From contig NZ_CP121660.1 in assembly GCF_029714365.1 (NCBI RefSeq), forward strand, positions 1,240,001 through 1,304,000: a DNA stretch of 64,000 nt. Direction: 5' to 3'. The stretch's first letter is position 1. The number at the start of each line of letters is the position of its first letter. The stretch is from Sinorhizobium terangae (GTDB taxonomy: Bacteria; Pseudomonadota; Alphaproteobacteria; Rhizobiales; Rhizobiaceae). Of this stretch, positions 15,488-31,223 are shown piece after piece. The notes under the pieces are model-generated. The model worked only from the letters and a program-made list of their open reading frames with translations. It did no database searches and was not told where the DNA came from. A program made the position numbers and the translations under genes.

Positions 15488-16372
15488 TCACCCCATCCGC
15501 TCCGACGCATAGCTCCCCGGGCTCGGCGGGAAGACGACGACGCGGTTGCCGTTGATGAAGCAGCGGTGGTGGATGTGGGCGTGCACGGCGCGGGCCAGCA
15601 CCTGGCTTTCGACGTCGCGGCCGATCGAGACATAGTCCTCGGCCGACTGCGCATGGGTGATGCGGGCGATGTCCTGCTCGATGATCGGACCTTCGTCGAG
15701 ATCGGCGGTGACGTAATGCGCCGTCGCGCCGATCAGCTTGACGCCGCGCTCATAGGCCTGCTTGTAGGGGTTGGCGCCCTTGAAGCTCGGCAGGAAGGAG
15801 TGATGGATGTTGATGATCCGGCCCGACATCTTCTTGCAGAGCGCGTCGGACAAGACCTGCATGTAGCGGGCCAGTACGATCAGTTCGGCGCCGGTCTGCT
15901 CGACGAGTTCCATCAGCTGGGCTTCGGCCTTCGGTTTGTTCTCCTTCGTCACCTTGATGCAGTGGAAGGGAATGTCGTGGTTGACGACCACCTTCTGGTA
16001 GTCGAAGTGGTTGGAGACGACGCCGACGATGTCGATCGGCAGTGCGCCGATCTTCCAGCGGTAGAGCAGGTCGTTGAGGCAATGGCCGAAACGCGACACC
16101 ATCAACAGCACTTTCATGCGCTCTTCGGAATCGCGGATCTCCGCCGTCATCTCGAACCGTTTCGCGACCGGTTCGAAGCCTTCCCGCAATTCGTCAAGCT
16201 TGACACCTTCCTCGCTGATGAAGACCAACCGCATGAAGAACAGACCCGTTTCGAGATCGTCGAACTGCGAGCTGTCAGTGATGTTACAGCCCTTTTCGGC
16301 GAGATAGCCCGAAACTGCCGCGATGATGCCGGTCGTCGACCTGCAGGTAATTGTAAGGATGTGCGATTTCAC
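15488..16372 (-). CDS. purU: Formyltetrahydrofolate deformylase (PurU)
   Basis: Hydrolyses 10-formyl-tetrahydrofolate to formate and tetrahydrofolate. The protein has an N-terminal ACT domain (about 1-80, SGYLAEKGCNITDSSQF) and a C-terminal formyltransferase-like domain with the NIHHSFLPSFKGANPY block (His190) and ADLDEGPIIEQD. Start is GTG at 16372 with AAGGAAG upstream; this gives 294 residues, the usual length, whereas the upstream extension is out of family. It sits 23 bases after doeB and ends the long minus-strand operon. PurU commonly accompanies sarcosine oxidase because demethylation loads the folate pool. Confidence 0.95.
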   Translation of the reverse strand: MKSHILTITCRSTTGIIAAVSGYLAEKGCNITDSSQFDDLETGLFFMRLVFISEEGVKLDELREGFEPVAKRFEMTAEIRDSEERMKVLLMVSRFGHCLNDLLYRWKIGALPIDIVGVVSNHFDYQKVVVNHDIPFHCIKVTKENKPKAEAQLMELVEQTGAELIVLARYMQVLSDALCKKMSGRIINIHHSFLPSFKGANPYKQAYERGVKLIGATAHYVTADLDEGPIIEQDIARITHAQSAEDYVSIGRDVESQVLARAVHAHIHHRCFINGNRVVVFPPSPGSYASERMG

Positions 16373-16395
16373 GACTATCTTCCTTGGAACGTGAG

Positions 16396-17394
16396 CTAAA
16401 CCGCGACGACGGCAACACAGTCGCCCTGCTTGACCAGACCTGGAAAGTGCCGGGCGGCCAGCAGGCCGTCCATCTTCGCCTTGATCGCGACCGGTTCGGC
16501 ACCGGTGCGCCCGATGGGATAAATGCGGGCAACCACGTCGCCCTTGCGTACCTTGTCCCCTAGATCGACGAGTGGCTCGATCAGGCCTCCATCTTCCGCG
16601 AAGGAGAAGCAGTCGCCGTCCGGCATGTCGAGCCATTCGGTCCTCGATGTCTCGACTGCCCCCTTCAGAATGCCGGCGGCGCGAAGCACGTTCCTGACGC
16701 CGCGTTTGGCGATGCCGGCGCTCCTGGCGGTTGCCGTTCCGCCGCCGCCAAGCTCGGTGGTGATAAACACCTTGCCCATCTCTTCGGCCGCAGTATCGTA
16801 CATTCCGACCGCATCGATCTCCAGCATCTTCATCGACCAGGGCGCGCCGAACGCCTTGACCAATTCGAAAGCCCTTGCCTCCTGCTCCTTGTCCGGCAGG
16901 ATGTGCGCGGCGCAGAACGGCAGGAAATCAAGCGTCTTTCCCCCCGAGTGGAAGTCGAGGACGATGTCCGCGAGCGGCAGGAGTTCTCGCTGGAAATAGT
17001 CGGCGATCTTCTGGGTCACGGTGCCGTCCGGCCTTCCCGGAAAGCTACGGTTCATATTGCCCTTGTCGATCGGCGACGTGCGGGTGCCGGCGGTGAAGGC
17101 CGGATAGTTCATGGCCGGTACGATAATGACTCGTCCCGTCACCTCATCCGGCTCCAAAGTCCGGGCGAGATCGAAGAGCGCGATTGGCCCTTCGTACTCG
17201 TCGCCGTGGTTGCCGCCCGTCAGAAGGGCGGTCGGGCCATCCCCATTCTTGACGACGGTGATCGGGATCATCACCGATCCCCAGGCGGAGTCATCGCGGC
17301 TGTAGGGCAGCCGCAGAAAGCCGTGCTGGACGCCTTCGGCCGAAAAATCGACGCTTGCTGAGATCGGCGATGGCCGCAATATCGTCTCGGTCAT
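16396..17394 (-). CDS. doeB: N-acetyl-L-2,4-diaminobutyrate deacetylase (DoeB/EutE)
   Basis: Removes the acetyl group from the N-acetyl-diaminobutyrate formed when the ectoine ring is opened. The 332-residue protein is of the AstE/AspA zinc hydrolase family: GGNHGDEYEG supplies His63 and Glu66, and DFHSGG supplies His149. The C-terminal domain ends in a beta-barrel-like region. EutE is known to act with EutD, and here the two genes are 6 bases apart in the order doeA-doeB. purU follows 23 bases later. Confidence 0.93.
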   Translation of the reverse strand: MTETILRPSPISASVDFSAEGVQHGFLRLPYSRDDSAWGSVMIPITVVKNGDGPTALLTGGNHGDEYEGPIALFDLARTLEPDEVTGRVIIVPAMNYPAFTAGTRTSPIDKGNMNRSFPGRPDGTVTQKIADYFQRELLPLADIVLDFHSGGKTLDFLPFCAAHILPDKEQEARAFELVKAFGAPWSMKMLEIDAVGMYDTAAEEMGKVFITTELGGGGTATARSAGIAKRGVRNVLRAAGILKGAVETSRTEWLDMPDGDCFSFAEDGGLIEPLVDLGDKVRKGDVVARIYPIGRTGAEPVAIKAKMDGLLAARHFPGLVKQGDCVAVVAV

Positions 17395-17400
17395 TTGTTG

Positions 17401-18582
17401 CTAGTCCTTGATAAAGAGCTGGCGCGGCACGTTGGCGAAACACTCGACGCCCGTCTCTGTGATGAGGATGCTTTCCGTGGTCTCAAAGCCCATGTCCTCG
17501 AGCCAGAGCCCGGTCATGAAGTGGAAGGTCATGCCCGGTTTCAGTTCCGTCCTGTCCCCGGGACGCAGGCTCATGGTGCGCTCACCCCAGTCCGGCGGAT
17601 AGGAAAGCCCGATCGGGTAGCCGGTGCGGTTGTCCTTGACGATGCCGTATTTCTTCAGGACCGCGAAGAAGGCCTTGGCTATGTCCTCGCAGGTGTTGCC
17701 CGGCCTGGCGACGGCAAGCCCCGCCTCCATTCCTTCGAGGGTCGCCTTTTCCGCGTCGACAAAGGCCTGGGTCGGCTTGCCGAGGAAGACCGTGCGCGAC
17801 AGTGGCACATGGTAACGATTGTAGCAGCCGGCGATCTCGAAGAAGGTCCCCTCACCCGCCTTCATGGGCTTGTCGTCCCAGGTAAGATGCGGCGCGGTTG
17901 CATCGCGGCCCGAGGGCAGCAGCGGCACGATCGCCGGGTAGTCGCCGCCGATCCCGTCAACCCCGCGCGTGCCGGCGTCATAGATCTCCGCGACGAGATC
18001 GCATTTGCGCATGCCGACCTCGATCTTTTCGAAGATACGGCGATGCATGCCCTCGACGATACGGGCCGCGTTGCGCATGTACTTGATCTCGGTCTCGCTC
18101 TTGACCGCGCGCTGCCAGTTGACGAGCGCGGTCGCATCGACGAAGCGGGCATTCGGCAGATGCTTTTGCAGCGAGGCGAACGCGGCGGCGGAGAACCAGT
18201 AGTTGTCCATCTCGACGCCGATCCTGAGTGCACCCCAGCCGCGGTCGGCAAGGATGCCGGAGAGGTAATCTATGGGATGGCGTTCGGTCGACTGCACGTA
18301 GTGGTCGGGGTAGCCGATGATGCTCTCGTGCTTCAGATAGGCCGTCAGCTTTGCACCGTTGGCGTCCTGGCCGCGGCCGAACCAGATCGGCTCGCCCGAT
18401 AGCGGTACGATCACGGCCTGGTGCACGTAGAACGACCAGCCATCATAGCCCGTCAGCCAGGCCATGTTCGATGGGTCGCTGACGATCAGCAGGTCGATGC
18501 CCTTCGCCTCCATCGACTGGCGCGTTTTCAGCAGTCTTGCTTCATATTCCGCCAAGGAAAATTTGAGATTGGGTTGAGTCAT
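17401..18582 (-). CDS. doeA: Ectoine hydrolase (DoeA/EutD), M24 creatinase-like
   Basis: Opens the ectoine ring to N-acetyl-diaminobutyrate. The 393-residue protein has the creatinase N-terminal domain (LTGYDGWSFYV) and an M24 pita-bread domain. His232 (PHLTW) and Glu249 (FFEIAG) are kept, but the two Asp ligands of metal-dependent M24 peptidases are replaced (Glu249 and Pro260), as expected in metal-free creatinase and DoeA. The conserved GLSYPPDWGERTMSLRPGDR block is present. It sits next to doeB, which favours it over the paralogue at 26765 as the main ectoine hydrolase. Confidence 0.92.
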   Translation of the reverse strand: MTQPNLKFSLAEYEARLLKTRQSMEAKGIDLLIVSDPSNMAWLTGYDGWSFYVHQAVIVPLSGEPIWFGRGQDANGAKLTAYLKHESIIGYPDHYVQSTERHPIDYLSGILADRGWGALRIGVEMDNYWFSAAAFASLQKHLPNARFVDATALVNWQRAVKSETEIKYMRNAARIVEGMHRRIFEKIEVGMRKCDLVAEIYDAGTRGVDGIGGDYPAIVPLLPSGRDATAPHLTWDDKPMKAGEGTFFEIAGCYNRYHVPLSRTVFLGKPTQAFVDAEKATLEGMEAGLAVARPGNTCEDIAKAFFAVLKKYGIVKDNRTGYPIGLSYPPDWGERTMSLRPGDRTELKPGMTFHFMTGLWLEDMGFETTESILITETGVECFANVPRQLFIKD

Positions 18583-18609
18583 CGTCGTTTCCTCGATTTT
18601 TCCCAGGGT

Positions 18610-19602
18610 CTAGCTTACGAACGTAGTCCCGGCATCCGCCGTATTGGCCCGCGTGAAGGCGAGGGTGGCGATTGCCGTATCCTGAATGCCGGTTCCGGTG
18701 AGATCCGCGATGGTGATCTGATCGGCGTCCGCGCGTCCCGGTCTCTGCCCGGCGATGATCTGCCCAAGCTCCGGGAAGTCATTCGCGGCCCCGACAACGC
18801 CAGCCTCAATGGCGTGGTGCAGTTCGCCGAGCCTGCGCGTCTGCGCGAGACTGTCGGCCACATAGAGGTCCGCGCGGCCAATGACGGCGGGCTCAATCTC
18901 ATTCTTGTGCTCGGCGTCCGAGCCCATAGCCGTAACGTGCTGTCCTTTCTCGAGCCATTCCGCTTTCAGAATGGGCGTGGCCGAGGGCGTCGTCGTGATG
19001 ATGACGTGTGCGCCCGAGACAGCTGCCTTCGCGTCTGAAACGGCGGTCACGGGGATCCCGAGCTTTTCGGCAAGCTCATCTGCCGCAGCCTTGGCCTTGG
19101 CATGATCCCGCGCCCAGATGCGCGCTTCGCGGATTGGCCGCACCAGCGCGAGCGCCTGAAGCTGCAGCTTCGCCTGCATCCCGGCTCCCAGAACCGCGGC
19201 AACGCTGGCATCCTTGCGGGCGAGATGCTTCGCGGCAACCGCTCCGGCGGCGGCGGTGCGGACATCCGTCAGGTAGCCGTTATCGAGCAACAGCGCCTGA
19301 ACGAGGCCGGTGCGGCTGGACAGCAGCACCATCATCCCGTTGGTGCTCGGCAAGCCGATCTTGGGATTGTCGAAGAAGCCAGGGCTGATCTTGATTGCAA
19401 AGCCTTCGATACCGGGAACATAGGCCGTCTTGACGTCGACCTCGCCGCGGTACTCCGGAATGTCCAGCCGCAGGATGGGCGGCATTGCCACGGCCTTCGT
19501 AGCCAAGGCATGGAAAGCGCTCTCGACGCAATCGACCGCCTCGGGGTCGAGCGATGCGACCGCCCTCAGATCAGCCTCTGTGAGAATCTTCATTTGTGTC
19601 AT
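18610..19602 (-). CDS. eutC: EutC, ornithine cyclodeaminase family (ectoine/hydroxyectoine utilisation)
   Basis: A 330-residue member of the ornithine cyclodeaminase/mu-crystallin family. It has the N-terminal substrate Lys in FAIKISPGF (Lys71), the nucleotide motif VLGAGMQAKLQLQAL, and DVRTAAAGAVAAKHLA. In ectoine clusters this family is named EutC and is implicated in hydroxyectoine breakdown; the precise reaction is not settled from sequence. The ATG overlaps the eutB stop by 4 bases (ATGA). doeA follows 27 bases downstream. Confidence 0.9.
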   Translation of the reverse strand: MTQMKILTEADLRAVASLDPEAVDCVESAFHALATKAVAMPPILRLDIPEYRGEVDVKTAYVPGIEGFAIKISPGFFDNPKIGLPSTNGMMVLLSSRTGLVQALLLDNGYLTDVRTAAAGAVAAKHLARKDASVAAVLGAGMQAKLQLQALALVRPIREARIWARDHAKAKAAADELAEKLGIPVTAVSDAKAAVSGAHVIITTTPSATPILKAEWLEKGQHVTAMGSDAEHKNEIEPAVIGRADLYVADSLAQTRRLGELHHAIEAGVVGAANDFPELGQIIAGQRPGRADADQITIADLTGTGIQDTAIATLAFTRANTADAGTTFVS

Positions 19603-20588
19603 GTTCTACTACCCTCCCGCAGGGGATCCTTCTCGCCGTTGATCACGCGCCGGTGCAGCCCCATGTCGATGTTGCGTCCTGAAAGGATCAGCGCGACAGG
19701 TCCGCCAATGTCTTTGACCTTGCCCGCCAAAAGTGCCGCAAAGCCGACGGCCCCTGCCCCCTCGACAATCTCGCGTTCCTGTTCGTAGGCGTGTCGCATG
19801 CCGGCGGCGATCTCTTCTTCGGAAAGCAGCACGACTTCGTCGAGGAGATCACGACACATGGTGAAGGTGACGCGGTTGTCGAGTCCGATCCCGCCGCCGA
19901 GCGAGTCCGCAAGACTTTCCTCTTCCTCGACCTGCACGGGCCGGCCGGCGTCGAGGCTTGCCTTCATCGCCGCACCGCGCTCCATCGTCAGCCCGATCAC
20001 CCGTGCCTTTGGCCGGCGCGCTTTGACCGCTGCGGCGACGCCCGCCGCGAGCCCGCCGCCCGAGAGCGGCACCAGCACCGTCGACACCTCCGGCATGTCG
20101 TCGACTATCTCCAGCCCCAAGGTAGCCTGGCCGGCAACGATCGCCGGATGATCGAACGGCGGCACCATCACCAGCCCCTCCTCGCTGACCAGACGGTCGA
20201 CCTCCTGCTGGGCCTCGTCCTGCGATCTGCCGACGATTCTCACATTCGCGCCGAGGCGCCGAATCTCCGACACCTTGTTCTCGGGCACCAGCCGCGACAT
20301 GCAGATCGTTGCGCTCGATCCTTCGGCTTTCGCCGCATGGGCAAGCGCCCGGCCGTGATTGCCAGTCGAGGCCGCCACGACACCGCGCGCCCGCTCCTGC
20401 GGGCTGAGCGACAGGACGGCGTTGGTAGCGCCGCGCAGCTTGAAGCTGCCGGTCGTCTGGTGGTGTTCGAGCTTCAGGCCGACTGGCACGCCGCAGCGCT
20501 CGGAAAGCGACGCGGAAAGGACAAAGGGGGTGCGCAGCACCCGGCCGGCGATCCGTTGCCGGGCCGCCAGGAAAGCGTCGAGCTCCAT
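19599..20588 (-). CDS. eutB: EutB, threonine-dehydratase-like PLP enzyme (hydroxyectoine utilisation)
   Basis: A fold-type II PLP enzyme of about 329 residues. The Schiff-base lysine is Lys50 in TTGSFKLRGA, and the glycine-rich PLP phosphate loop is SGGGLAAG. In ectoine/hydroxyectoine clusters this protein is EutB, proposed to act as a dehydratase on a hydroxyectoine-derived intermediate. The start at 20588 is favoured: its ATG overlaps the soxG stop as TGATG, with GGAGGA upstream. Longer starts at 20597 and 20609 run into that ribosome site. The one-base junction with soxG couples ectoine and sarcosine genes. Confidence 0.9.
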   Translation of the reverse strand: MELDAFLAARQRIAGRVLRTPFVLSASLSERCGVPVGLKLEHHQTTGSFKLRGATNAVLSLSPQERARGVVAASTGNHGRALAHAAKAEGSSATICMSRLVPENKVSEIRRLGANVRIVGRSQDEAQQEVDRLVSEEGLVMVPPFDHPAIVAGQATLGLEIVDDMPEVSTVLVPLSGGGLAAGVAAAVKARRPKARVIGLTMERGAAMKASLDAGRPVQVEEEESLADSLGGGIGLDNRVTFTMCRDLLDEVVLLSEEEIAAGMRHAYEQEREIVEGAGAVGFAALLAGKVKDIGGPVALILSGRNIDMGLHRRVINGEKDPLREGSRT

Positions 20589-21085
20589 CACTGGCATTCC
20601 TCCAGCCATTCAGAGATGCTCCTTGCGAAGCTTCGCGGCACGACAAATTCGCCATCGCGCTCCGAGAAACGCGTGAACATGACCGGGATGCGGTGCAGCG
20701 AGGAAAAGGTCGCAACGCCCAGTGTGCGGTCCCAGTCGATCGCCAGACACTTGGAGACGACATCGCGCAGATCGGGCGTGGAGACCTCGATGCGTATCCG
20801 CCCTTCGCTGAGGTCCAGCCTGCAGCCCAATTCGGGCGGAATGCCGGAAGCGATCGCCGACGAGCGCTCGGACGGGAAAATCCAGAAGCGCTGTGGTCCG
20901 GCGCGCACGACGCTGAGGCCGTCGCGGCCGGCAATCTGCCCGACCTGGATCGGCAGGGCGCCACCGATCTCGCCGGCGAGCGCCGACTCGAAAGCCGCAA
21001 GGGTGCCCTCCCATGCATCGCATTGAATGAGCGGGCATGGCAGTTGCTTCAGCACCATGCGCTTGGCGGATGACGTCTCAACCAT
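20588..21085 (-). CDS. soxG: Sarcosine oxidase gamma subunit (SoxG)
   Basis: The small gamma subunit of heterotetrameric sarcosine oxidase, 165 residues. The family pattern is visible in the RFWIFPSER segment, the RIRIEVSTPDLRDVV segment and the C-terminal RIPVMFTRFSERDGEFVVPRS block, given in shortened form. The start at 21085 overlaps the soxA end by 8 bases; the longer frame to 21148 lies within soxA and is not supported. The stop shares one base with the eutB ATG. It completes soxB-D-A-G. Confidence 0.9.
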   Translation of the reverse strand: MVETSSAKRMVLKQLPCPLIQCDAWEGTLAAFESALAGEIGGALPIQVGQIAGRDGLSVVRAGPQRFWIFPSERSSAIASGIPPELGCRLDLSEGRIRIEVSTPDLRDVVSKCLAIDWDRTLGVATFSSLHRIPVMFTRFSERDGEFVVPRSFARSISEWLEECQ

Positions 21086-24017
21086 GCATGCGTTCTCCGG
21101 CGGGATCGAGGAAGACGGGCGAAACGACGCGCGCCCGCACGACCTCATTTTTCATGGGGTAGGAGGCAATCACCTCGTCGCCTTTGAAGTCCGCGGCAAG
21201 CAGTCCGAGGCCGACGTAGCAGTCCAGCTCCGGACTGTAGGTGATCGACGTCATGCGGCCGTGGCCGTGGCCTTGCAGCGGCTCGCCGGGTGCAAACAGA
21301 AGCGCCCCACCGCGAAGCCGTTTGCCCGGTTCGATGCATTTCAGGCCGACCAGCCGCTGGCGGTTTGCAGCCTGAAACGCCTCCCGATGGCTGAGCGCCT
21401 CGCCGACATAGCCGCTGCGCTTGGCGACCATCCGGCCCATGCCGAGGTCCGCAAGCGTCGTCCTGCCGTCGATTTCCGGGCCGGCTACGTGGCCCTTTTC
21501 GATGCGCAGCGCACCAAGCGCCTCGACGCCGTAGGGTTTCAGGCCGTTTGGCGCGCCGGCATCGATGAGATGCCGCCAGGCGGCTTCTCCATTCGAGGCC
21601 CCGACATAGATCTCGTAGGCGCGCTCGCCGGAGTAGCTGAGGCGTATGATCCTCAGCGGGCTTTCCTTGAACATTCCCTCGGTCAGCCCCATGTGCGGCA
21701 GCGCCTCGTTGGAGAAATCGATCTCCGGGAACGCCGCCGCGAGTATTTTGGCGCTCTCAGGCCCAGTGACCGACATACCCGCCCATTCGTCGCTGACCGA
21801 TGAAACGGAGACGCGCAAATCCGGCCACGCCGTGTCCAGCAGGAACTCCAGCCAGGAAAGCACGTCCGCCGCCTTGGCGGTCGACGTCGTCATGAAGAAG
21901 CGGTTCTGCTCGAGGCGGGTCGTCGTTCCATCATCGAAAACAATTCCGTCGTCGCGCAGCATGACGCCGTAACGCGCCCGCCCGACTTTAAGGCTGGCGA
22001 AACCGTTGGCGTAGACCCTGTCGAGAAAGGCGGCTGCGTCCGGTCCCTGGATGTCGATCTTGCCGAGTGTCGAGATGTCCATGATCCCCGCCGCGGATCG
22101 CACAAGCCGCATTTCGTTGACGTAAGCCGTGTTCACATCCTTGCCGGAAGCCTCGAAGAACCACGGCCGCATCCAGAGACCGACCTCGAGCATCTGCGCG
22201 CCATTTGCGGTATGCCAGTCGTGGATCGGCGTGAGGCGGTAGGGACGGAAGTGGTGACCTGTCGCACGCCCGGCAACCGCCCCGATCGCCACCGGCGTAT
22301 AGGGCGGCCGGAAGGTAGTCGTTCCGGCCTCCGGGATCGAAATCCCGCGCAATTTGGCCATCACCTTCAGGGCGTTGATATTGCTGGTCTTGCCTTGGTC
22401 GGTACCCATACCGAGCGTCGTATAGCGCTTGAGGTGCTCGACCGACTCGTAGCCTTCCCGCTGGGCGAGTTGGATATCGTCGAGCGTCACGTCCATCTGG
22501 AAATCGACAAATGCCTTTCGCTGACCGAAGATCGGCTTGTAGACGGTCGTCGGTCCGGCCGCCTCCTCGATCTCCAAAGCGGGCAATTCGGTGACTGTCC
22601 CGGCCTTTCCAGCGACGGCGGCCGCCGCGCGGCCGGCGCTGGCACCCTCGGCGATCGCCGCCGAGACGCTCAGGCTTCCGCCCGCCGCGCCCGCGACGAA
22701 CTGGGTTTCGGGGAGCTGCCCCGGAACAAAGGCGTCGATCTCTGGGCGGTAGACAGGCTTCACTCCCTGGTGCGACGTCAGATGCAGCACCGGAGACCAG
22801 CCGGCGGACATGCCGACCAGATCGCAACTGACGCCGGTGGTGCCTGATTTTCCTGCGAGAACGACACCGGTTACCGCATATTTGCCTTTCACGTCCGCGA
22901 CATTCGTCGCGAGGTGAATCTCAGCACCCAATTGCTTGGCCTTCGCAAGCAGCGTCGGCTCCGCGAGCGGCCTCGCGTCGGCGATCGTGACGCGTGCGCC
23001 GTGGGTGAGGAGATCGAAAGCGGTGAGATAAGCGCTGTCGTCAGCGGTCGCGATCACGACGTTCCTGCCGGGCAGAACCGCGTAGCGATTGACATACGCC
23101 CTGAGCGCCGAGTTCAGCATGACGCCCGGCCGGTCATTATTCGAGAAGACCATCGGCCGCTCGATCGCGCCCGTCGCAAAAACGATGCTGCGGGCGTGCA
23201 GCAATGTGAAGGTTTTCCGCGCCGCATCCATCGCGGGACCAGCGAAGAGATCCGCATCCTCGATCAGTGCAAGCGTATTCCCGTCATAGAGGCCGAAGGC
23301 GGTCGTGCGGCGCATGATGCGCACGTTCGCCATTTCCTCAAGCTCTGCCCGCATCGCGCCGAGCCATGCCGCTCCCGCAGGCTCGGAAAGCAGGAGGCCG
23401 CCGATTTCGAAGTCCTGCTCGATCAGCAACACACGCGCTCCGGCTTGCGCGGCGGCCCGGGCGGCGGAAAGTCCGGCCGCGCCACTGCCGACGACCGCCA
23501 CGTCCGTGAAATCGTCACGGGAGTCGTACACATCCGGGTCCGGCAGCATTGTCGCCTTGCCGAGACCGGCGGCCTTGCGGATGAAGTGCTCATAGAACAT
23601 CCAGGCACGGCGGCTCGGTCCCATGAAGGTCTTGTAGTAGAAGCCCGAGGAAAGCAGCGGGCTGAACAGGCTGTTGACGCTCCGGACATCGAAACGCAAC
23701 GACGGCCAGTTGTTCTGGCTTGCCGCTTCCAGGCCGAATGCCAGTTCAAGCATCGTGGCCGGCAGGTTCGGCTCCCGGCGCGCGCCGGTGCCAACCGTCA
23801 CCAGTGCGTTCGGCTCTTCCGCGCCAGCGGAAAGGATGCCGCGGGGACGATGATACTTGAAGCTCCTGCCGACCAGCGCGACCCCGCTCGCAAGCAGGGC
23901 GGAAGCGAGCGTGTCTCCCTTGAATCCCGCGTACTGACGGCCATCGAACATAAACTTGATGACTTGCGAGCGGTCCAGATATCCGCCCGACGCAAGGCGC
24001 TTTTCGGTGGGTGTCAT
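21078..24017 (-). CDS. soxA: Sarcosine oxidase alpha subunit (SoxA)
   Basis: The large subunit, 979 residues. It has an N-terminal ferredoxin-fold-like region without iron-sulfur cysteines (about 15-100), an NAD-binding pyridine nucleotide module (DVAVVGSGAAGLSAARAA at about 170), and a C-terminal GcvT/aminomethyltransferase-like folate-binding domain (about 590-970). The complex demethylates sarcosine to glycine and gives 5,10-methylene-tetrahydrofolate or formaldehyde plus peroxide. The start at 24017 is fixed by ATGA overlap with soxD; the 33-residue longer frame lies inside soxD. Confidence 0.95.
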   Translation of the reverse strand: MTPTEKRLASGGYLDRSQVIKFMFDGRQYAGFKGDTLASALLASGVALVGRSFKYHRPRGILSAGAEEPNALVTVGTGARREPNLPATMLELAFGLEAASQNNWPSLRFDVRSVNSLFSPLLSSGFYYKTFMGPSRRAWMFYEHFIRKAAGLGKATMLPDPDVYDSRDDFTDVAVVGSGAAGLSAARAAAQAGARVLLIEQDFEIGGLLLSEPAGAAWLGAMRAELEEMANVRIMRRTTAFGLYDGNTLALIEDADLFAGPAMDAARKTFTLLHARSIVFATGAIERPMVFSNNDRPGVMLNSALRAYVNRYAVLPGRNVVIATADDSAYLTAFDLLTHGARVTIADARPLAEPTLLAKAKQLGAEIHLATNVADVKGKYAVTGVVLAGKSGTTGVSCDLVGMSAGWSPVLHLTSHQGVKPVYRPEIDAFVPGQLPETQFVAGAAGGSLSVSAAIAEGASAGRAAAAVAGKAGTVTELPALEIEEAAGPTTVYKPIFGQRKAFVDFQMDVTLDDIQLAQREGYESVEHLKRYTTLGMGTDQGKTSNINALKVMAKLRGISIPEAGTTTFRPPYTPVAIGAVAGRATGHHFRPYRLTPIHDWHTANGAQMLEVGLWMRPWFFEASGKDVNTAYVNEMRLVRSAAGIMDISTLGKIDIQGPDAAAFLDRVYANGFASLKVGRARYGVMLRDDGIVFDDGTTTRLEQNRFFMTTSTAKAADVLSWLEFLLDTAWPDLRVSVSSVSDEWAGMSVTGPESAKILAAAFPEIDFSNEALPHMGLTEGMFKESPLRIIRLSYSGERAYEIYVGASNGEAAWRHLIDAGAPNGLKPYGVEALGALRIEKGHVAGPEIDGRTTLADLGMGRMVAKRSGYVGEALSHREAFQAANRQRLVGLKCIEPGKRLRGGALLFAPGEPLQGHGHGRMTSITYSPELDCYVGLGLLAADFKGDEVIASYPMKNEVVRARVVSPVFLDPAGERMHG

Positions 24018-24280
24018 GCCCGTTGCCTTCTTGAGAAACTGACCGAATGGATCGAGTGCGTGACCGTGTCGCGCTCGACGACAAGCCATTGGCGGCAGCC
24101 GAGAACGTGCTGCCAATATTCCCGATGCAGCCCCTTGGGATTGGCGCGCACGTACACGTAGCGATACCAGGCATCGCCATCCGGATTGTCGTGAGCGGGG
24201 CGCTCGACGGTGGCATCGCCGCCGTAACGGAATTCACTGTGGTCACGCATGCCGCAGCAGGGGCAGTCGATACGAAGCAT
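24014..24280 (-). CDS. soxD: Sarcosine oxidase delta subunit (SoxD)
   Basis: An 88-residue delta subunit with the cysteine cluster near the N-terminus (IDCPCCGMRDHSEF; Cys6, Cys8, Cys9) and the YVRANPKGLHREYWQHV block with a later Cys in LGCRQWL, the expected zinc site. Length is typical. It starts 9 bases after the soxB stop and overlaps soxA by 4 bases. Confidence 0.95.
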   Translation of the reverse strand: MLRIDCPCCGMRDHSEFRYGGDATVERPAHDNPDGDAWYRYVYVRANPKGLHREYWQHVLGCRQWLVVERDTVTHSIHSVSFSRRQRA

Positions 24281-24289
24281 CTCGCTCTC

Positions 24290-25546
24290 CTATTGAAGCC
24301 ACGCGAAGGGGCCGGCACCAGCCTCGTCGATCATGTGCCCACTGCGGAAGCGCCCCAGCCCATAGCCGCGGACGAGCGCCGGCGTCTCGCCAGTCGCCAG
24401 CATCTCGGCGAAGCACCAGCCGGATGCGGGGGTCGCCTTGAACCCGCCGTAGCACCAGCCGCCATTCAGATAGAGGCCATCGACGGGCGTCAGCGAGATG
24501 ATCGGGCTGGCGTCCGGCGTCATGTCCATGATGCCGCCCCAATGGCGCAGCAGGCGCAGGCGCGAGATGTTCGGCATCAGCGCGATCGCGGCTTCACAGA
24601 CCTCGCGCAGCACGCCGGTATTGCCGCGCTGGGAGTAGGAATTGTAGCCGTCGAGGTTGCCGCCGAAGACGAGACCGCCCTTGTCGGACTGGCTGAGGTA
24701 GAAGTGGTCCGCCCCGTAGGCGACGACATGGTCGACCAACGGCTTGACCGGCTCCGTTACGAAGGCCTGAAGCAGATGGCTCTCGATCGGGAGCTCCAGC
24801 CCCGCCTTCTGGGCAAGGACCGACGTATGGCCGGCCACCGCAAGGCCGACCCGGCCGGCACCGATGCGGCCACGGGTGGTTTCAACGCCAACGATCCGAT
24901 CGCCCTGCCGGACAAAGTCCGTAACTTCGCAGCCCTCGATGATGTCGACACCGTGGCCGCTTGCCGCGCGTGCATAACCCCATGCGACCGCATCGTGGCG
25001 GGCCGTGCCGGCGCGCCCCTGGAAGATCGCCCCATGGATCGGAAACCGCGCCGTGTCGGAGAAGTCGAGATAGGGCACGAGCTTGCGCACGGCGTCCCGG
25101 TCGAGAATCTCCGCATCGATGCCGTTCGAGCGCATGACATTGGCGCGGTGGCTGAACGTATCGAGCTGATCCGCCGAATGTGCCGTCACGAGCTGGCCGC
25201 GCTGGGAGAACATGACGTTGAAGTTCAGCGCCGCCGACATTCCCTCCCAGAGCTTCATGGAGAACTCGTAGAACTGGGTGTTGCCGTCGAGCAGATAGTT
25301 CGACCGGATGACCGTCGTGTTCCGGCCCACATTGCCGCCGCCGATATAGCCTTTCTCCACCACCGCGACGTTGCGGATGCCGTGGTTCTCGGCGAGGTAG
25401 AAGGCGGTCGCGAGGCCGTGCCCGCCCCCACCTATGATGACGACGTCATAGGAGGCCTTCGGAGTGGCGGCCCGCCAGGCGCGTTGCCATCCCCGGTTGC
25501 CTGTGGCTGCGTGGCGCAGCAGCGAGAAGACCGAATAGCGGCTCAT
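24290..25546 (-). CDS. soxB: Sarcosine oxidase beta subunit (SoxB)
   Basis: The FAD-binding catalytic subunit, 418 residues. The N-terminal Rossmann motif is VVIIGGGGHGLATAFYLAE (about 35-53). The YIGGGNVGRNTTVIRSNY block and the C-terminal GGWCYGGFKATPASGW segment are diagnostic of SoxB. It begins 9 bases after the M24 gene and is followed by soxD. As the first of the four sox genes it shows that the operon order is M24, soxB, soxD, soxA, soxG. Confidence 0.96.
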   Translation of the reverse strand: MSRYSVFSLLRHAATGNRGWQRAWRAATPKASYDVVIIGGGGHGLATAFYLAENHGIRNVAVVEKGYIGGGNVGRNTTVIRSNYLLDGNTQFYEFSMKLWEGMSAALNFNVMFSQRGQLVTAHSADQLDTFSHRANVMRSNGIDAEILDRDAVRKLVPYLDFSDTARFPIHGAIFQGRAGTARHDAVAWGYARAASGHGVDIIEGCEVTDFVRQGDRIVGVETTRGRIGAGRVGLAVAGHTSVLAQKAGLELPIESHLLQAFVTEPVKPLVDHVVAYGADHFYLSQSDKGGLVFGGNLDGYNSYSQRGNTGVLREVCEAAIALMPNISRLRLLRHWGGIMDMTPDASPIISLTPVDGLYLNGGWCYGGFKATPASGWCFAEMLATGETPALVRGYGLGRFRSGHMIDEAGAGPFAWLQ

Positions 25547-25555
25547 GACAAAGTC

Positions 25556-26704
25556 CTATCGAACGATCGGGCCGAGCGGCGTGCGCGTCAGCACCTCGGG
25601 TCCGGTCTCCGTCAGCAAGACGGTGTTGGAGACGAAATCGTCCCCCTTTCCGGTCCCCATAAGCCAGGAAAGGATGTGGAAGCTCATGCCCGTGCGGATC
25701 TCGAGATCGGAATCGTGCCTGAGACCGGTCACCGTGTTTCCGCCCGTCCACGACGGCGGCTGGCCGACGCCCACGCAGTAGCCGCAGTGATGGCGGCGGT
25801 AATGGGAAAGGCCCGCATCATCGACGACAGCCTGCCAGGCGGCATAGACATCCCGGGCGCGTGCGCCGGGCCTGAGCGCCCCGACCACGGCATCAAAGGC
25901 CGCCGCCGTCACTTCCGCCATGCGCGCATCGGCGTCGCTGATGCCTCCAAGCCGGATCAGGCGCCCGAGCGGCGCGTGATAGCGCGAGATGCACCCGGAA
26001 AGCTCGATGAAGACCGGCTCTCCTTGGCGGTAGTTTCCCGATCCCCAAGTCGTGTGCTCCTCGCCAAGGCGGGAGGCCGGACGGATGAAGGGGCCAAAGC
26101 CAGGCACGTGACCTCCCGCGCGGGTCATCGCGGCGATGCATTCCGCAGCAACGTCGCGCTCCCGTGCACCGTCGGCGATCGCCTCGATGGCGGCGCTGGC
26201 CGCCGCGTCCGTGACCGCGGCCGCCCGCCGCATGAGGACCTGCTCCTCGGCGCTCTTCACCAGTCGCAACTGATCCACGAGGTTGGAGATATCGCTCCAC
26301 TCGGCGGACACGAGCGATTCCAGCCGCTGCGCAAGCCCGTGGCTCAGCCCGGACGTCCATTGCTCGAGCCCGAGCCGCTTTCCGGCAAAGCCCTGATCGT
26401 TGAGGATGCGCGACGCAAGGTCGGCCGCGGTTTCGCTATCGCTGTGGCCGCGGAACTCGGCCGCACGGACATGATTTTCGATCGTCACCCGCTCCATCGC
26501 GCGGGTGACGAGGGTGGGCACACCCCGGAGCGGAACGATGAGAAGATGGGGGGCAAAGTAGCCCCAGTGGTCGAGACCGGTCAGATAAAAGATGTTTTCC
26601 GGCGATGCGAAAACCGCCGCGTCAAGTCCGCGATCGACGAGCCCGGCTCTAACAGCATCAAGACGGCGCGCGATCTCGCCATCGGTAAAGGGATTACCGT
26701 CCAT
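25556..26704 (-). CDS. M24 family, creatinase-like hydrolase beside soxB
   Basis: A 382-residue protein with a creatinase N-terminal domain (FYLTGLDHWGYFAPHL) and M24 domain. The EEHTTW motif (His217) and FIELSG (Glu234) match the creatinase/DoeA active-site pattern, while the metal-binding Asp pair of true M24 peptidases is absent (Glu234, Pro245). It is more divergent from the two DoeA-like proteins here than they are from each other. Its stop is 9 bases before soxB. Since creatinase makes sarcosine from creatine, it may supply the Sox complex with substrate, but an ectoine-related or other amide substrate is equally open. Confidence 0.75.
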   Translation of the reverse strand: MDGNPFTDGEIARRLDAVRAGLVDRGLDAAVFASPENIFYLTGLDHWGYFAPHLLIVPLRGVPTLVTRAMERVTIENHVRAAEFRGHSDSETAADLASRILNDQGFAGKRLGLEQWTSGLSHGLAQRLESLVSAEWSDISNLVDQLRLVKSAEEQVLMRRAAAVTDAAASAAIEAIADGARERDVAAECIAAMTRAGGHVPGFGPFIRPASRLGEEHTTWGSGNYRQGEPVFIELSGCISRYHAPLGRLIRLGGISDADARMAEVTAAAFDAVVGALRPGARARDVYAAWQAVVDDAGLSHYRRHHCGYCVGVGQPPSWTGGNTVTGLRHDSDLEIRTGMSFHILSWLMGTGKGDDFVSNTVLLTETGPEVLTRTPLGPIVR

Positions 26705-26764
26705 GGTTTCTCTCTTGTCTTCCGCCCTCGGTCGGCGGCGCTTCGAATGGATATCAATGGGCGT

Positions 26765-27946
26765 CTATTCGACGACGATCAGTTCCCGGGGCGACGTGCA
26801 AAGCTTCTCCCCGCCCTTATCCGTGACGACGAAGGACTCGGATATCGCCAGGCCGAAATCGCCAAGCCAGACACCGGCCATCATGTGAAAGCACATGCCT
26901 GGCTGCAGCTCGGTCCGATCGCCCGGACGGAGACTGACCGTGCGCTCGCCCCAGTCCGGCGGATAGGCCAGGCCGATCGGATAACCGACGCGGCTTTCCT
27001 TTTTCAGCCCCCGGCTGCGCAGAACCGCCTGCCATGCGGCCTCGACCTCCCCGGCGGTGTTGCCGGAACGCGCCTTTTCGAGCCCGGCGTCCACACCGTC
27101 GACAATGGCCTTGGCGATATCGATGTAGGTCTGCGGCGGCCGGCCAAAATGCACCGTGCGGGTAAGCGCCGCATGGTAACGCCGCCTGACCCCGGCGATT
27201 TCAAGGATCGCGAGGCCGGACTGCGGCAGGGGGTCCTCGGTCCAGGTCAGATGCGGCGTGGCGGTGCCTTCACCGACGGGCATCAGCGGGCAGATGGCGG
27301 CATAGTCGCCGCCGAGACCACCGACGCCCATGATCTGGGCGTGATAGAGCTCGGCGATGACTTCGTTCTGCGGCACCCCAGGGCTCATCTTCGCGACGGC
27401 CCGCTCCATCGCATGTGAGCAAATGGCGCCGGCCTCACGCATCAGGGTCAGTTCGGGTTCCGATTTGATCAGGCGAGCCCAATTGACGAGATCGCCATTG
27501 TTGGAAAAGCGGGCATCCGGAAGCCCCTTGACGAGATGGGCGTGGCACCGCGCCGTGTAGTAGTGCGCGTCCATCTCCACCCCGATGCGCGCCTCCCCCC
27601 AGCCACGGGCCCGCACCAGTTCGGCAAGCTCGTCGAAGGGATGGCCTTCCGGGTTCTGCACCAGATACTCCGAAAACGGTACGACGTTGCTCTGAGGCAA
27701 GCCGGTCGTCAGAAGGGCGCTCTTCTCGTCCTGCGCGCGGCCGAACCAGATGGGCAGTTCCTCGTCCGCGTGCACGAGGACGCACTGCGGAACATAGAAG
27801 GACCAGCCGTCGTAGCCGGTGAGCCAACCCATGTTCGCGGGATCCTGACAGATGATGAGGTCGAAGCCCGCCCGCTCCATGCGCTTCTTCACGTCACGGA
27901 TCCGGCGTGAATACTCCGCCGCGGTAAAAACAGCCGACCTGCTCAC
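26765..27946 (-). CDS. DoeA-like M24 hydrolase, second copy
   Basis: A 393-residue protein closely matching the DoeA at 17401-18582 in length and layout, with LTGYDGWSFYV, PHLTW (His232), ILEIAG (Glu249) and GLAYPPDWGERTVSLRPGDR. Ala260 replaces the second metal Asp, so it too is of the metal-free type. The start is GTG at 27946 with GGAGGAG 5 bases upstream, which gives exactly the DoeA length; the ATG at 28006 adds 20 unrelated residues and covers a palindrome. It is the promoter-proximal gene of the minus operon. It may hydrolyse hydroxyectoine or ectoine; which copy prefers which is unknown. Confidence 0.85.
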   Translation of the reverse strand: MSRSAVFTAAEYSRRIRDVKKRMERAGFDLIICQDPANMGWLTGYDGWSFYVPQCVLVHADEELPIWFGRAQDEKSALLTTGLPQSNVVPFSEYLVQNPEGHPFDELAELVRARGWGEARIGVEMDAHYYTARCHAHLVKGLPDARFSNNGDLVNWARLIKSEPELTLMREAGAICSHAMERAVAKMSPGVPQNEVIAELYHAQIMGVGGLGGDYAAICPLMPVGEGTATPHLTWTEDPLPQSGLAILEIAGVRRRYHAALTRTVHFGRPPQTYIDIAKAIVDGVDAGLEKARSGNTAGEVEAAWQAVLRSRGLKKESRVGYPIGLAYPPDWGERTVSLRPGDRTELQPGMCFHMMAGVWLGDFGLAISESFVVTDKGGEKLCTSPRELIVVE

Positions 27947-27976: not shown

Positions 27977-27988
27977 GATGTGTACATC
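27977..27988. promoter_or_regulatory. Putative GntR-type operator, minus-operon side
   Basis: GATGT-GT-ACATC is a perfect inverted repeat with a 2-base spacer, 31 bases before the GTG of the second doeA-like gene. TGT/ACA palindromes are typical GntR sites. The GntR gene at 31226 is the nearest candidate ligand. Confidence 0.45.
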
Positions 27989-28060: not shown

Positions 28061-28074
28061 AGATGTATACTTCT
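28061..28074. promoter_or_regulatory. Putative GntR-type operator, ehuB side
   Basis: AGATGTATACTTCT has a GTATAC core and near-symmetric flanks (one mismatch), 64 bases before the ehuB ATG. With the site at 27977 it gives each arm of the divergent ectoine region its own palindrome. Confidence 0.4.
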
Positions 28075-28137: not shown

Positions 28138-29001
28138 ATGTTCAAAACTCTCATTTCCCGCAGGAATGCACTGAGGGCAGCAGCCCTCACGATTGCCGCC
28201 GTGTCCTTCTCCGGCTACGCCCATGCCGAGTCGACCCTCGAGAGGGCAAAGGCTGCCGGCTATATCCGCATCGGATTTGCCAATGAGGCGCCTTTCGGAT
28301 TTGCGACGCCGGACGGAAAGCTCACGGGAGAAGCGCCGGAAGTTGCGAAGGCCGTGCTCAAGAAAATGGGCATCGCGGAAGTGGACGGCGTCCTCACGGA
28401 ATTCGGCTCGCTCATTCCGGGCTTGAAGGCAGGTCGCTTCGACATCATCGCGGCGGGCATGTTCATCAATCCCAAGCGTTGCGCCGAGATCGCCTTCTCC
28501 GAGCCCTCCTATGGCATCGGGCAGGCCATGCTGGTCGCGAAGGGCAACCCCAAGGCGGTCAAGGACTATTCCACGTTCGCGTCCAACAAGGACCTGAAGC
28601 TCGCCGTGATGGCGGGTGCTGTCGAGAACGGCTACGCCAAGGATGCCGGCGTCGCGCCCGACCAGATCATCTCGCTGCCCGATCAGTCCAGCCTCGTCGC
28701 CGCTGTCCAGGCCGGCCGCGCGGATGCGGCAGCGCTGACCGCGCTCTCCATCGCCGAGATGGCCAAGAAGGCGGAAGGCGTGGAATCGACCGAGCCCTTT
28801 GGTGAAGTTGCCGGAAAGTCGGTCAAGGGCCATGGCGGCTTCGGCTTCCGCAAGGAAGACAAGGACCTCGTCGAGGCCTTCAACAAGGAGCTCGCCGCCT
28901 TCCTGGGCACCCCCGAACACATCGCCCTCGTCGAACCGCTGGGCTTTGGCAAGGCCTATCTGCCAAACAAGACGACCGCGCAGCTTTGCGCAGGCGAGTA
29001 A
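28138..29001 (+). CDS. ehuB: Ectoine/hydroxyectoine-binding periplasmic protein (EhuB)
   Basis: The solute receptor of the Ehu ABC importer, 287 residues. A Sec signal peptide (RRNALRAAALTIAAVSFSG, cleavage after AHA near residue 29) precedes a family 3 (polar amino-acid type) binding domain with IRIGFANEAPFGFATPDG. The start at 28138 has AAAAGGGGAA upstream; the longer frame from 28063 has none. The family alone would read as an amino-acid receptor; neighbouring doe/eut, asnC, ssd and atf genes point to ectoine. It is the first gene of the plus-strand operon. Confidence 0.92.
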   Translation: MFKTLISRRNALRAAALTIAAVSFSGYAHAESTLERAKAAGYIRIGFANEAPFGFATPDGKLTGEAPEVAKAVLKKMGIAEVDGVLTEFGSLIPGLKAGRFDIIAAGMFINPKRCAEIAFSEPSYGIGQAMLVAKGNPKAVKDYSTFASNKDLKLAVMAGAVENGYAKDAGVAPDQIISLPDQSSLVAAVQAGRADAAALTALSIAEMAKKAEGVESTEPFGEVAGKSVKGHGGFGFRKEDKDLVEAFNKELAAFLGTPEHIALVEPLGFGKAYLPNKTTAQLCAGE

Positions 29002-29014
29002 CGCCTTCTGGCCG

Positions 29015-29064: not shown

Positions 29065-29793
29065 ATGTGGATTCGCATGCTCGCCGCGATGCTCGCGGCA
29101 ACGTTGCTGCTGATTGCCCTGCTTTCGGCCAACCCTGATTACCGGCTCTTCATGCCGGGCTTGCTCGACGGCGCCGTCCTGACGGTAGAGATCACGCTTC
29201 TGGGTGCTGTACTCGCCGTATTCATGGCGCTGATAGCGGCACTCGCAAAGCTCTACGGCCCTCTGCCGATAAGGTGGCTTTCGACGACCTACATTGAAAT
29301 CTTCCGCGGGACTTCCGCGTTGGTGCAGCTCTTTTGGCTCTATTTCGTCCTGCCGCAATTCGGCATCTTCCTCGACGCCTTTGTGGTGGCGGTTCTGGCG
29401 CTCGGCCTGAACATTGGAGCCTATGGAGCGGAAGTGGTCCGGGGTGCCATCGTTTCCGTGGCGCGCGGACAGTGGGAGGCTTCGATCGCACTGAACATGT
29501 CTCAGGCACAAATGCTGCGCCGGATCATTCTGCCGCAGGCGTTTACGGCGATGATCCCGCCCTGGGGCAACCTTTTCATCGAACTGGTGAAGTCCACGTC
29601 GCTCGTTTCCCTGATTACGCTCGCGGACCTCACCTTCAAGGCCCAGCAAATGAACCAGACCACACTGAAGACCGTCCCGGTGTTTACCCTCGTGCTGCTG
29701 ATCTATCTGGCCATTTCTCTAACCGTCACCATTGGCATGCGCCTGCTTGAGCAGCGCGCGTCGAGGGGACTGACACGCGGAAGGGTCGCCTGA
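29065..29793 (+). CDS. ehuC: Ectoine ABC transporter permease (EhuC)
   Basis: An inner-membrane permease of 242 residues, HisMQ/GlnP type. About five hydrophobic segments are seen, with the cytoplasmic ATPase-docking loop at GQWEASIALNMSQAQMLRRI, and an N-terminal TVEITLLGAVLAVFMALI segment. The start at 29065 has GAGGGA upstream. Its TGA overlaps the ehuD ATG by one base (TGATG). It forms the channel together with EhuD. Confidence 0.92.
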   Translation: MWIRMLAAMLAATLLLIALLSANPDYRLFMPGLLDGAVLTVEITLLGAVLAVFMALIAALAKLYGPLPIRWLSTTYIEIFRGTSALVQLFWLYFVLPQFGIFLDAFVVAVLALGLNIGAYGAEVVRGAIVSVARGQWEASIALNMSQAQMLRRIILPQAFTAMIPPWGNLFIELVKSTSLVSLITLADLTFKAQQMNQTTLKTVPVFTLVLLIYLAISLTVTIGMRLLEQRASRGLTRGRVA

Positions 29794-30440
29794 TGTGGGA
29801 TTGGACATTCACATTCGAGATTCTGCCGGTGCTTGCTCGGGCGGCGATCATGACGGTCGAAGCGACCGCTCTCGGTTTCGTCATAGCGGCGACACTCGGC
29901 CTTGTGCTCGCCTCCATCAGGCTGGCTTTTCCGGCCGCCGGCGTCGTCGTCACGGTGCTCGTGGAACTGATCCGGTCGACGCCCCTGCTCATCCAGATAT
30001 TCTTCCTCTACTTCGTCTTGCCGAAGGCAGGATTCGTGCTGGATGCGTTTACGGCCGGCGTGGCAGCCATTGGCATTCACTATGCCGCCTATTGCTCCGA
30101 GGTTTACCGGGCCGGGTTCGAGAACGTTCCGAGAGGGCAATGGGAGGCATCGATCGCTCTCAATCTGTCTCCCTGGAACACTTTCAAGGATATAATCCTG
30201 CCTCAGGCCCTGCCTCCGGTCGTTCCTGCGCTTGGAAACTATCTGATCGCGCTTTTCAAGGAGACACCCTTGCTTTCGGCCATTGCCGTCCTCGAGCTCA
30301 TGCAGACCGCAAAGAACATCGGATCCGAGACCTTCCGCTATACCGAGCCCGTCACGCTCGTCGGGGTGTTCTTCCTGGTTATGAGTCTCGTTTCAGCGGG
30401 CATGGTCCGGATGCTCGAATCGTGGTTGCAGCGGAGATAA
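29793..30440 (+). CDS. ehuD: Ectoine ABC transporter permease (EhuD)
   Basis: The second HisMQ-type permease, 215 residues, homologous to EhuC. The ATPase-contact loop is GQWEASIALNLSPWNTFKDI, and the first membrane segment follows TVEATALGFVIAATLGLVL. It is translationally coupled to ehuC by TGATG and followed after 3 bases by ehuA. Nothing unusual. Confidence 0.92.
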   Translation: MWDWTFTFEILPVLARAAIMTVEATALGFVIAATLGLVLASIRLAFPAAGVVVTVLVELIRSTPLLIQIFFLYFVLPKAGFVLDAFTAGVAAIGIHYAAYCSEVYRAGFENVPRGQWEASIALNLSPWNTFKDIILPQALPPVVPALGNYLIALFKETPLLSAIAVLELMQTAKNIGSETFRYTEPVTLVGVFFLVMSLVSAGMVRMLESWLQRR

Positions 30441-30443: not shown

Positions 30444-31223
30444 ATGAACGACATGCCAATGGTACGCTTCGAGAACGTTTCAAAACGCTACGGCCCGCTC
30501 ACCGTTCTCGACAATCTCAATCTTGACATCGGCCGCGGCGAGAAGGTGTCGATCATCGGTCCCTCGGGCTCCGGCAAGACGACCGTCTTGCGCATGCTTA
30601 TGACGTTGGAGGCCATCAATGACGGCGTCCTCTGGGTCGATGGGGAGCCCATGACGCACATGATGCAGAACGGCAAGCTCGTGCCTGCGACCACCAAGCA
30701 CATACGCCGGATCCGCGCGAAAATCGGCATGGTATTCCAGTCCTTCAACCTCTTCCCGCACATGACGGCGATGGGAAACTGCATCGAAGCTCCGATAACC
30801 GTGCTCGGAATGAAGCGCTCGGAGGCCGAGGAACGCGCGGCGGAACTTCTCAACATGGTCGGCCTGTCCGCCAAGAAGGATCACTACCCGTCGCAGCTGT
30901 CGGGCGGTCAGCAGCAGCGCGTGGCGATCGCGCGGGCGCTTGCAATGCGGCCGAAGATCATGTTGTTCGACGAAGTCACGTCGGCGCTCGACCCGGAACT
31001 TGTCGGCGAAGTCCTGCAGGTTATAAGGAAGATCGGGCGCGAACACGACCTGACCATGCTCATGGTCACCCACCAGATGGGTTTCGCCAAGGAGTTTTCG
31101 GACAGGGTGTGCTTCTTCTATCAAGGCAAGATTTGCGAGCAGGGCGCGCCGTCGGAAATCTTTGGAAACCCCAAGAACGAAAGGACAAGGCAGTTTCTGA
31201 ACGCTGTCTTGGAAGCAGGATAA
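30444..31223 (+). CDS. ehuA: Ectoine ABC transporter ATP-binding protein (EhuA)
   Basis: The cytoplasmic ATPase of the importer, 259 residues. Walker A is GPSGSGKTT (39-47), the signature is LSGGQQQRVAIARAL, and Walker B is IMLFDEVTSALDPE, followed by a switch His in VTHQMGFA. All catalytic residues are intact. It is of the polar amino-acid (GlnQ/HisP) class, matching the EhuB/C/D family. Two bases separate its stop from the TTG proposed for the GntR gene. Confidence 0.93.
   Translation: MNDMPMVRFENVSKRYGPLTVLDNLNLDIGRGEKVSIIGPSGSGKTTVLRMLMTLEAINDGVLWVDGEPMTHMMQNGKLVPATTKHIRRIRAKIGMVFQSFNLFPHMTAMGNCIEAPITVLGMKRSEAEERAAELLNMVGLSAKKDHYPSQLSGGQQQRVAIARALAMRPKIMLFDEVTSALDPELVGEVLQVIRKIGREHDLTMLMVTHQMGFAKEFSDRVCFFYQGKICEQGAPSEIFGNPKNERTRQFLNAVLEAG

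Follow-up and report, generated by a model that had tools for sequence, protein, structure and literature searches.

The window analysed here, a stretch of 64,000 nucleotides of Sinorhizobium terangae (contig NZ_CP121660.1, positions 1,240,001 to 1,304,000; within contig C2 of a 6.63-Mb genome in three contigs), contains an eleven-gene operon in which sarcosine oxidase genes (soxBDAG) and ectoine degradation genes (eutBC, doeAB) stand behind two genes for M24-family hydrolases, which we call M24a and M24b. We found that this operon is a mosaic, in which a cassette of M24a, M24b, sox, importer and gntR genes is joined to ordinary Rhizobiaceae eutBC-doeAB. We give about an even chance to the broader reading that the operon and the genes divergent from it form one regulon of two jointly induced modules, which would serve the use of ectoines and of an ectoine-like compound yielding an N-methyl amino acid.

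The operon lies on the minus strand, from 27946 to 15488. Gene identities were assigned with NCBIfam models and their curated cut-offs, and the genes are, in operon order:

26765..27946, minus strand: M24a, a DoeA-like hydrolase paralog and the operon's first gene, with a GTG start (TIGR02993, 480.8 bits, under the cut-off of 613)
25556..26704, minus strand: M24b, a divergent DoeA-like M24 hydrolase (NF038259, 203.5 of 575 bits; TIGR02993, 152.5 of 613 bits)
24290..25546, minus strand: soxB (TIGR01373, 657.6 bits, above cut-off)
24014..24280, minus strand: soxD (TIGR01374, 110.6 bits, under the cut-off of 116.5)
21078..24017, minus strand: soxA (TIGR01372, 1229 bits, above cut-off), with a match to the folate-binding GCV_T domain
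20588..21085, minus strand: soxG, divergent (TIGR01375, 53.1 bits, under the cut-off of 143.95)
19599..20588, minus strand: eutB (TIGR02991, 570 bits, above cut-off)
18610..19602, minus strand: eutC (TIGR02992, 582 bits, above cut-off)
17401..18582, minus strand: doeA (eutD), ectoine hydrolase (TIGR02993, 823 bits, above cut-off)
16396..17394, minus strand: doeB (eutE) (TIGR02994, 628 bits, above cut-off)
15488..16372, minus strand: purU, formyltetrahydrofolate (formyl-THF) deformylase, with a GTG start (NF004684, 429 bits, above cut-off)

This order, on one strand and with gaps of at most 60 bases, had been described in the initial annotation and was borne out by the gene calls and junctions. 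The gaps measured 60 bases (M24a/M24b), 9 (M24b/soxB), 9 (soxB/soxD), 27 (eutC/doeA), 6 (doeA/doeB) and 23 (doeB/purU). With the starts as chosen, four of the ten junctions overlap, not five as had been claimed: soxD/soxA by 4 bases, soxA/soxG by 8, soxG/eutB by 1 and eutB/eutC by 4. The single base shared by the soxG stop and the eutB start, also pointed out earlier, lies in the motif TGATG with GGAGGA upstream, and the same TGATG was present in all eight fused loci read besides the window, six of them distinct (L013/L088 and L010/L090 are letter-identical pairs). Furthermore, purU follows doeB in five of the six fused loci L009 to L014 and was not seen in L011. Since the gene order is conserved across the fused loci, it is no assembly accident. 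The proposed joint transcription of sox and ectoine genes is made plausible by this anatomy, by the conserved junction and by the one divergent control region described below, as far as sequence can tell.

Related loci were collected with M24b as the query; 59 were fetched and four annotated plasmid regions (L095 to L098) were added. The resulting 63 loci, 5.4 to 33 kb long and in some cases ending at contig ends, all carry M24b by selection and are silent on loci without it. Genomes were sampled at one per species, and the trees are of single genes. The closest plasmid records for the region were the megaplasmids of Sinorhizobium chiapasense and S. mexicanum (about 91%), and the proteins of the S. 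terangae locus L010 were 97 to 100% identical to those of the window. M24b was matched at 1e-60 in 13 of 33 genomes of the genus, with 96 to 100% identity in ten and 34 to 45% in three. All ten high-identity genomes have eutB at 4976 to 4978 bases from M24b. That the order might be universal in ectoine clusters was rejected, since eutB was above its cut-off in 33 of 33 genomes and the fusion was found in 10 of the 33.

The full fusion type is represented by L009 to L014. M24a-M24b-soxBDAG stands divergent from gntR-ehu, with no eut genes, in Rhizobium sullae, Shinella and many Mesorhizobium, and the Burkholderiaceae loci L059 and L062 have gntR-ehu and M24b-sox only. Four Mesorhizobium loci (L033, L036, L037 and L061) carry M24b-eutB-eutC-doeA-doeB-asnC-ssd-atf without sox. 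The order eutBC-M24a-M24b occurs with sox in L039 and without it in L034 and L055 (the latter cut), and Chelativorans and Nitratireductor have Ehu-eutBC-asnC-ssd-M24b-atf, where doeA has an ArgE-like neighbour and no doeB was found. The M24b tree placed the fused M24b as sister to that of R. sullae, then Shinella, and the EutB tree grouped the fused EutB with Rhizobiaceae EutB of ordinary clusters. These placements identify the fusion as a join of two modules within the Rhizobiaceae. The initial annotation, which saw an ectoine cluster with sox genes put in, had this the wrong way round: it is the stand-alone M24a-M24b-soxBDAG-Ehu cassette that is followed by eutBC-doeA-doeB, with eutA missing.

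One genome of the genus, G016, has both the fusion and an ordinary, eutA-bearing cluster. The EutB of that cluster (L089; G016:C4:1511192-1512145) falls with the fused EutB in the EutB tree and is 92% identical to it; the fused EutB shares 79 to 80% identity with nine other ordinary clusters of the genus. This likeness hints at recombination between the copies or at the donor lineage. L097 and L098 are conjugative plasmids of Mesorhizobium sp. AR07 and Rhizobium sp. CCGE532 with an M24b of about 46% identity, and their gene set comprises GntR, aspartate dehydrogenase, ehu, M24b, amidase, sox, a beta-eliminating-lyase relative, a threonine/serine-type dehydratase and purU. In L097 the genes from the amidase to purU come after M24b, the dehydratase is nearest to hydroxyaspartate ammonia-lyase, below the cut-off of that model, and the aspartate dehydrogenase gene lies by the importer. 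On a plasmid of Mesorhizobium sp. 131-2-5 (L096), one run contains an annotated ectoine hydrolase, two deacylases of the M20 family, a 42% relative of M24b, soxBDAG and genes for an Ehu importer; upstream is a gene of the pyridoxal phosphate-dependent aminotransferase family, MocR-like by label and place.

Divergent from the operon runs ehuBCDA-gntR-asnC-ssd-atf, spanning 28138 to 35473, which the initial annotation had left out. These genes and the sites in front of them are:

27978..27987, no strand: operator-like palindrome near M24a (WWGTRYACWW)
28063..28072, no strand: operator-like palindrome near ehuB, overlapping the -10-like TATACT of a promoter-like site towards ehuB
28138..29001, plus strand: ehuB-like gene for a solute-binding protein (TIGR02995, 310 bits, above cut-off)
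29065..29793, plus strand: ehuC (TIGR03004, 273.9 bits, above cut-off)
29793..30440, plus strand: ehuD (TIGR03003, 295.4 bits, above cut-off)
30444..31223, plus strand: ehuA (TIGR03005, 439.5 bits, above cut-off)
31226..31957, plus strand: gntR, FCD-type regulator, start uncertain (PF00392 and PF07729)
31954..32439, plus strand: asnC/lrp-type regulator
32573..34069, plus strand: ssd, aldehyde dehydrogenase, below the cut-offs of its best-matching models, with 83% identity to its counterpart in the annotated eutABCDE cluster of Shinella
34076..35473, plus strand: atf, aminotransferase, with 88% identity to its counterpart in the annotated eutABCDE cluster of Shinella

The longest open reading frame for ehuB begins at 28063, inside the operator-like site; a more probable start is the ATG at 28138, which follows AAAGGGGAACCC. 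The two palindromes are 85 bases apart within the 191-base gap between M24a and ehuB. A consensus scan for internal promoters and terminators found one promoter-like site (plus strand, 28044), compared with a mean of 2.0 in shuffles, and nine terminator-like sites, compared with 8.6. For the operator test, 62 loci were examined and 40 used, mostly near relatives, in which the divergent ehuB and the first gene were found. WWGTRYACWW was present in 38 of these 40 regions, on which the motif had itself been defined, versus a mean of 0.5 regions in shuffles that preserve single-base content only and a background of 6 sites in 835 kb taken from elsewhere in these loci. It preceded 27 of 27 operons that begin with M24a, 8 of 10 that begin with M24b and 3 of 3 that begin with eutB; the two regions without it are those of the distant L097 and L098. 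Thirteen further loci came out of the same test, ten of them with two or more sites and three (L035, L047 and L054) with none, and no palindrome was found in the ordinary eutABCDE stretch of Shinella (L099). Read most simply, both sides would be under the control of the GntR-FCD protein whose gene accompanies those of the importer. A third match in the window (57372 to 57381) lies upstream of an ATP-binding cassette transporter ATPase gene (57540 to 58628) and could be a site for the same regulator or for a sister of it.

M24a matched the solved ectoine hydrolase 6twk with 388 bits, and M24b scored 134.6 bits to 6twk versus 69.7 to creatinase 1chm; both proteins are below the cut-offs of the ectoine hydrolase (DoeA) models. 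Six residues, chosen as constant in DoeA and, except for the His, unlike creatinase, were followed through the alignments. These residues (His217, Trp220, Glu234, Pro317, Trp319 and His343 in M24b numbering) were present in 25 of 25 DoeA, 32 of 32 M24a and 64 of 64 M24b rows. M24b also shares with creatinase the M24 family and the catalytic His232, kept in 64 of 64 rows. In contrast, creatinase R64, E262, R335 and E358 (1chm), which we take to be the residues that bind its substrate, were kept in none of the 64 M24b rows at any of the four columns. As judged from sequence, on which the fold argument rests as well, the residues of M24b are ectoine-hydrolase-like rather than creatinase-like. The label "creatinase-like" in the initial annotation did not hold beyond the fold and the catalytic His, and an ordinary creatinase was ruled out by the four substrate columns. 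Two pairs set M24b apart: EE, preceding the catalytic His (62 and 63 of 64 rows), and HH, within a short insert (63 and 64 of 64 rows).

A divergent creatinase, with the first module running from creatine via sarcosine to glycine, seems highly improbable to us. The EE pair adjoining the catalytic His is a possible binding site for a guanidinium group, M24b and sox occur in nine loci without M24a or doeA, and serine-forming and serine-using genes follow sox in L062, all of which would suit such a route. Against it stand the creatinase residues missing from every M24b row and the closest solved relative, which is an ectoine hydrolase.

The sox part resembles heterotetrameric sarcosine oxidase operons in its order B-D-A-G and in SoxB and SoxA scoring above their cut-offs. 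Compared with 2gag_B, SoxB keeps GGFK and the His at the place of flavin mononucleotide (FMN) attachment, presumably the covalent FMN anchor of sarcosine oxidase. Unlike such operons, this one is led by two DoeA-like hydrolases and is served by an ectoine-type importer, and its SoxG and SoxD are below their cut-offs; the sox models are the best and only matches of these two proteins. EhuB keeps most of the 2q88 positions that we take to be ectoine contacts, with one Tyr to Phe change. In Paraburkholderia L062, genes for serine hydroxymethyltransferase and L-serine ammonia-lyase, both above cut-off, stand after soxG, as expected if Sox yields glycine and methylene-THF. Three soxB genes above cut-off were found in the genome, two of them on C1, and the operon sox set is thus a paralog beside these. 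There are also three purU genes above cut-off, and the TIGR02993 ectoine hydrolase cut-off was passed by one gene, the doeA of this operon.

For its sox and ectoine steps, the two-module reading relies on what is known or has been proposed for these enzyme families. The first module would comprise the GntR-FCD regulator, the EhuBCDA-type importer, M24a, M24b and SoxBDAG, and would take in an ectoine-like amidine. The DoeA-like hydrolases M24a and M24b would release an N-methyl amino acid from it. This product, most likely sarcosine, would be demethylated by SoxBDAG to glycine and 5,10-methylene-THF; PurU, converting formyl-THF to THF, would close the folate cycle. In the second module, EutB, EutC, DoeA and DoeB, then Atf and Ssd from the other strand, would convert ectoine and hydroxyectoine towards aspartate. 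Because the second module lies directly behind soxG in Sinorhizobium, the two would share a single importer and a single promoter region, which has two operator-like sites. We infer the single transcript, the GntR control, all of the substrates and the processing of related compounds by the two modules. M24b would probably make the Sox substrate, since it is paired with sox in loci where no other such hydrolase was seen: 9 of the 39 sox loci have no M24a or doeA in the stretch covered, some of these stretches being cut, so that such a gene may lie elsewhere.

According to PMC5924519, S. meliloti pSymB carries an ehuABCD-eutABCDE cluster for ectoine and hydroxyectoine, and many ectoine clusters lack eutA. 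A survey of 575 EutD proteins (PMC13188858) likewise describes variable gene content and clusters without eutA. The window has in common with the S. meliloti cluster the EhuBCDA importer, EutB, EutC, DoeA/EutD, DoeB/EutE, AsnC, Ssd and Atf. It differs in having no eutA and no close EnuR, with a GntR-FCD regulator instead, and in its operon, which additionally contains two M24 genes, soxBDAG and purU. Its Ehu lineage differs too, EhuD being 54 to 57% identical to the EhuD of ordinary clusters. We recognised no paper describing the combination of ectoine and sarcosine oxidase genes in the literature searched; in the accessible text of PMC5924519 and PMC13188858 "sarcosine oxidase" does not occur, and the sole "sarcosine" in the latter is in a reference title.

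A profile search of the genome for eutA, whose absence the initial annotation did not mention, gave no match at E 0.001. The same model was matched above its cut-off in 21 of the 33 genomes of the genus, with some match in 27. No close EnuR of the MocR type was found in the genome either: the query was the regulator of MocR type that adjoins ehuA in Shinella, treated as EnuR because of its place, and its best match, on C1, was 33% identical. M24b, or M24a and M24b together, might replace the missing EutA in an alternative hydroxyectoine route, with sox as a passenger. In line with this, eutA was above cut-off in 1 of 10 genus genomes with the M24b ortholog versus 20 of 23 without (p 5e-5; the three genomes with a 34 to 45% relative counted as "without"), and G016, the one exception, carries eutA in a second cluster. 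No eutA of at least 200 bits was present in the 63 M24b loci (L053 has a 34% identical, 142-bit relative), and the four Mesorhizobium loci place M24b directly before eutB, which is the place of eutA in ordinary clusters. However, 32 of the 63 loci have sox and no eutB, and many eut clusters do without eutA anyway (PMC5924519 and PMC13188858). Furthermore, EutA is a proposed racemase, whereas M24b resembles an amidine hydrolase, and four of the ten M24b genomes (G026, G027, G028 and G030) match the eutA model below its cut-off. We regard this replacement as improbable.

The two-module reading also draws on the company that M24b keeps. Of the 63 loci, 39 contain sox and 26 contain eutB; 7 have both and 5 have neither, and 56 carry an Ehu-type ATPase. 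The eutB count is for at least 250 bits, with L035, cut at its edge, left out; at 100 bits or more it rises to 30 and includes the 31 to 37% identical dehydratases of L066, L097 and L098. In a 43-row M24b tree, in which L035 was set as eutB-positive, there are at least 8 changes of partner state (8 for the presence of sox and 6 for that of eutB); 21 of the 64 rows were omitted from it, namely 18 near relatives, also omitted from the other M24b tree, and three long branches. In a draw of 199 genomes from the order, scored for at most 10 (eutB), 13 (eutA) and 9 (M24b) candidates per genome, eutB was present in 12 of 15 genomes with M24b versus 39 of 184 without (p 7e-6), and still in 6 of 9 when the six genomes with M24b-eutB neighbours were removed (p 0.006). 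Since the partners of M24b switch repeatedly on the tree, a functional link is likelier than one chance join. The shared intermediate proposed in the initial annotation gains indirect support from the way M24b accompanies sox, and also eutB, in several lineages; the intermediate itself stays conjectural at the level of sequence.

A chance join, in which a sarcosine-yielding route and ordinary ectoine catabolism would share a promoter and an importer and nothing more, is possible, though we doubt it. The Shinella plasmid holds the stand-alone cassette and a separate, complete eutABCDE-ehu cluster, so that in this cell the cassette does not simply serve as the route for ectoine; in the same family, G101, G137 and G168 have eutA adjoining eutB, with the M24b relative far off or on another contig. 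These cases favor a chance join. A single meeting of M24b and eutB would be luck, but the meetings are repeated: they occur in at least three EutB backgrounds, namely the Sinorhizobium fusion, Mesorhizobium without sox and a deep clade (Chelativorans and others), and M24b also stands beside a 37% identical EutB-like gene in a Chloroflexota metagenome-assembled genome (L066).

Several points weigh against the two-module reading. On the sox side, SoxD and SoxG fall short of their curated cut-offs, and eutB occurs without sox in 19 of the 63 M24b loci and neither gene in 5, as far as the stretches reach. The changes of partner state were counted on the tree with no shuffled-label baseline, and the Fisher tests mix related genomes, the genome-level associations being confounded by shared ancestry. 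As to the operator-like site, the motif was tested on its own defining regions, only 6 of the 40 carry two exact matches, and no palindrome was present where looked for in L097, L098, L035, L047 and L054. Finally, no natural N-methyl, ectoine-like substrate is named in the portions of the literature consulted.

Going further than the two-module reading, we tentatively suggest that M24b marks an undescribed pathway for an N-methyl ectoine-like amidine, an idea with clearly less than an even chance. It would consist of EhuB-type import, DoeA-like opening, demethylation by a dedicated Sox and the action of EutB and EutC on a hydroxylated form. The pathway would have been assembled independently several times, the Sinorhizobium fusion being one case.

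Elsewhere in the window, a urocanase gene (4211 to 5890) places histidine utilisation at its left end, and an 836-residue protein (52185 to 54695) contains two aldehyde dehydrogenase stretches.

The recurrent M24b-sox-eut-Ehu combination and the conserved operator-like site make a testable system of one solute-binding protein, one hydrolase and one demethylase. If the suggested pathway is real, a methylated ectoine-like osmolyte or nutrient would be present around plant roots. Should the N-methyl reading hold, rhizobia would be using a nutrient that has so far not been described.

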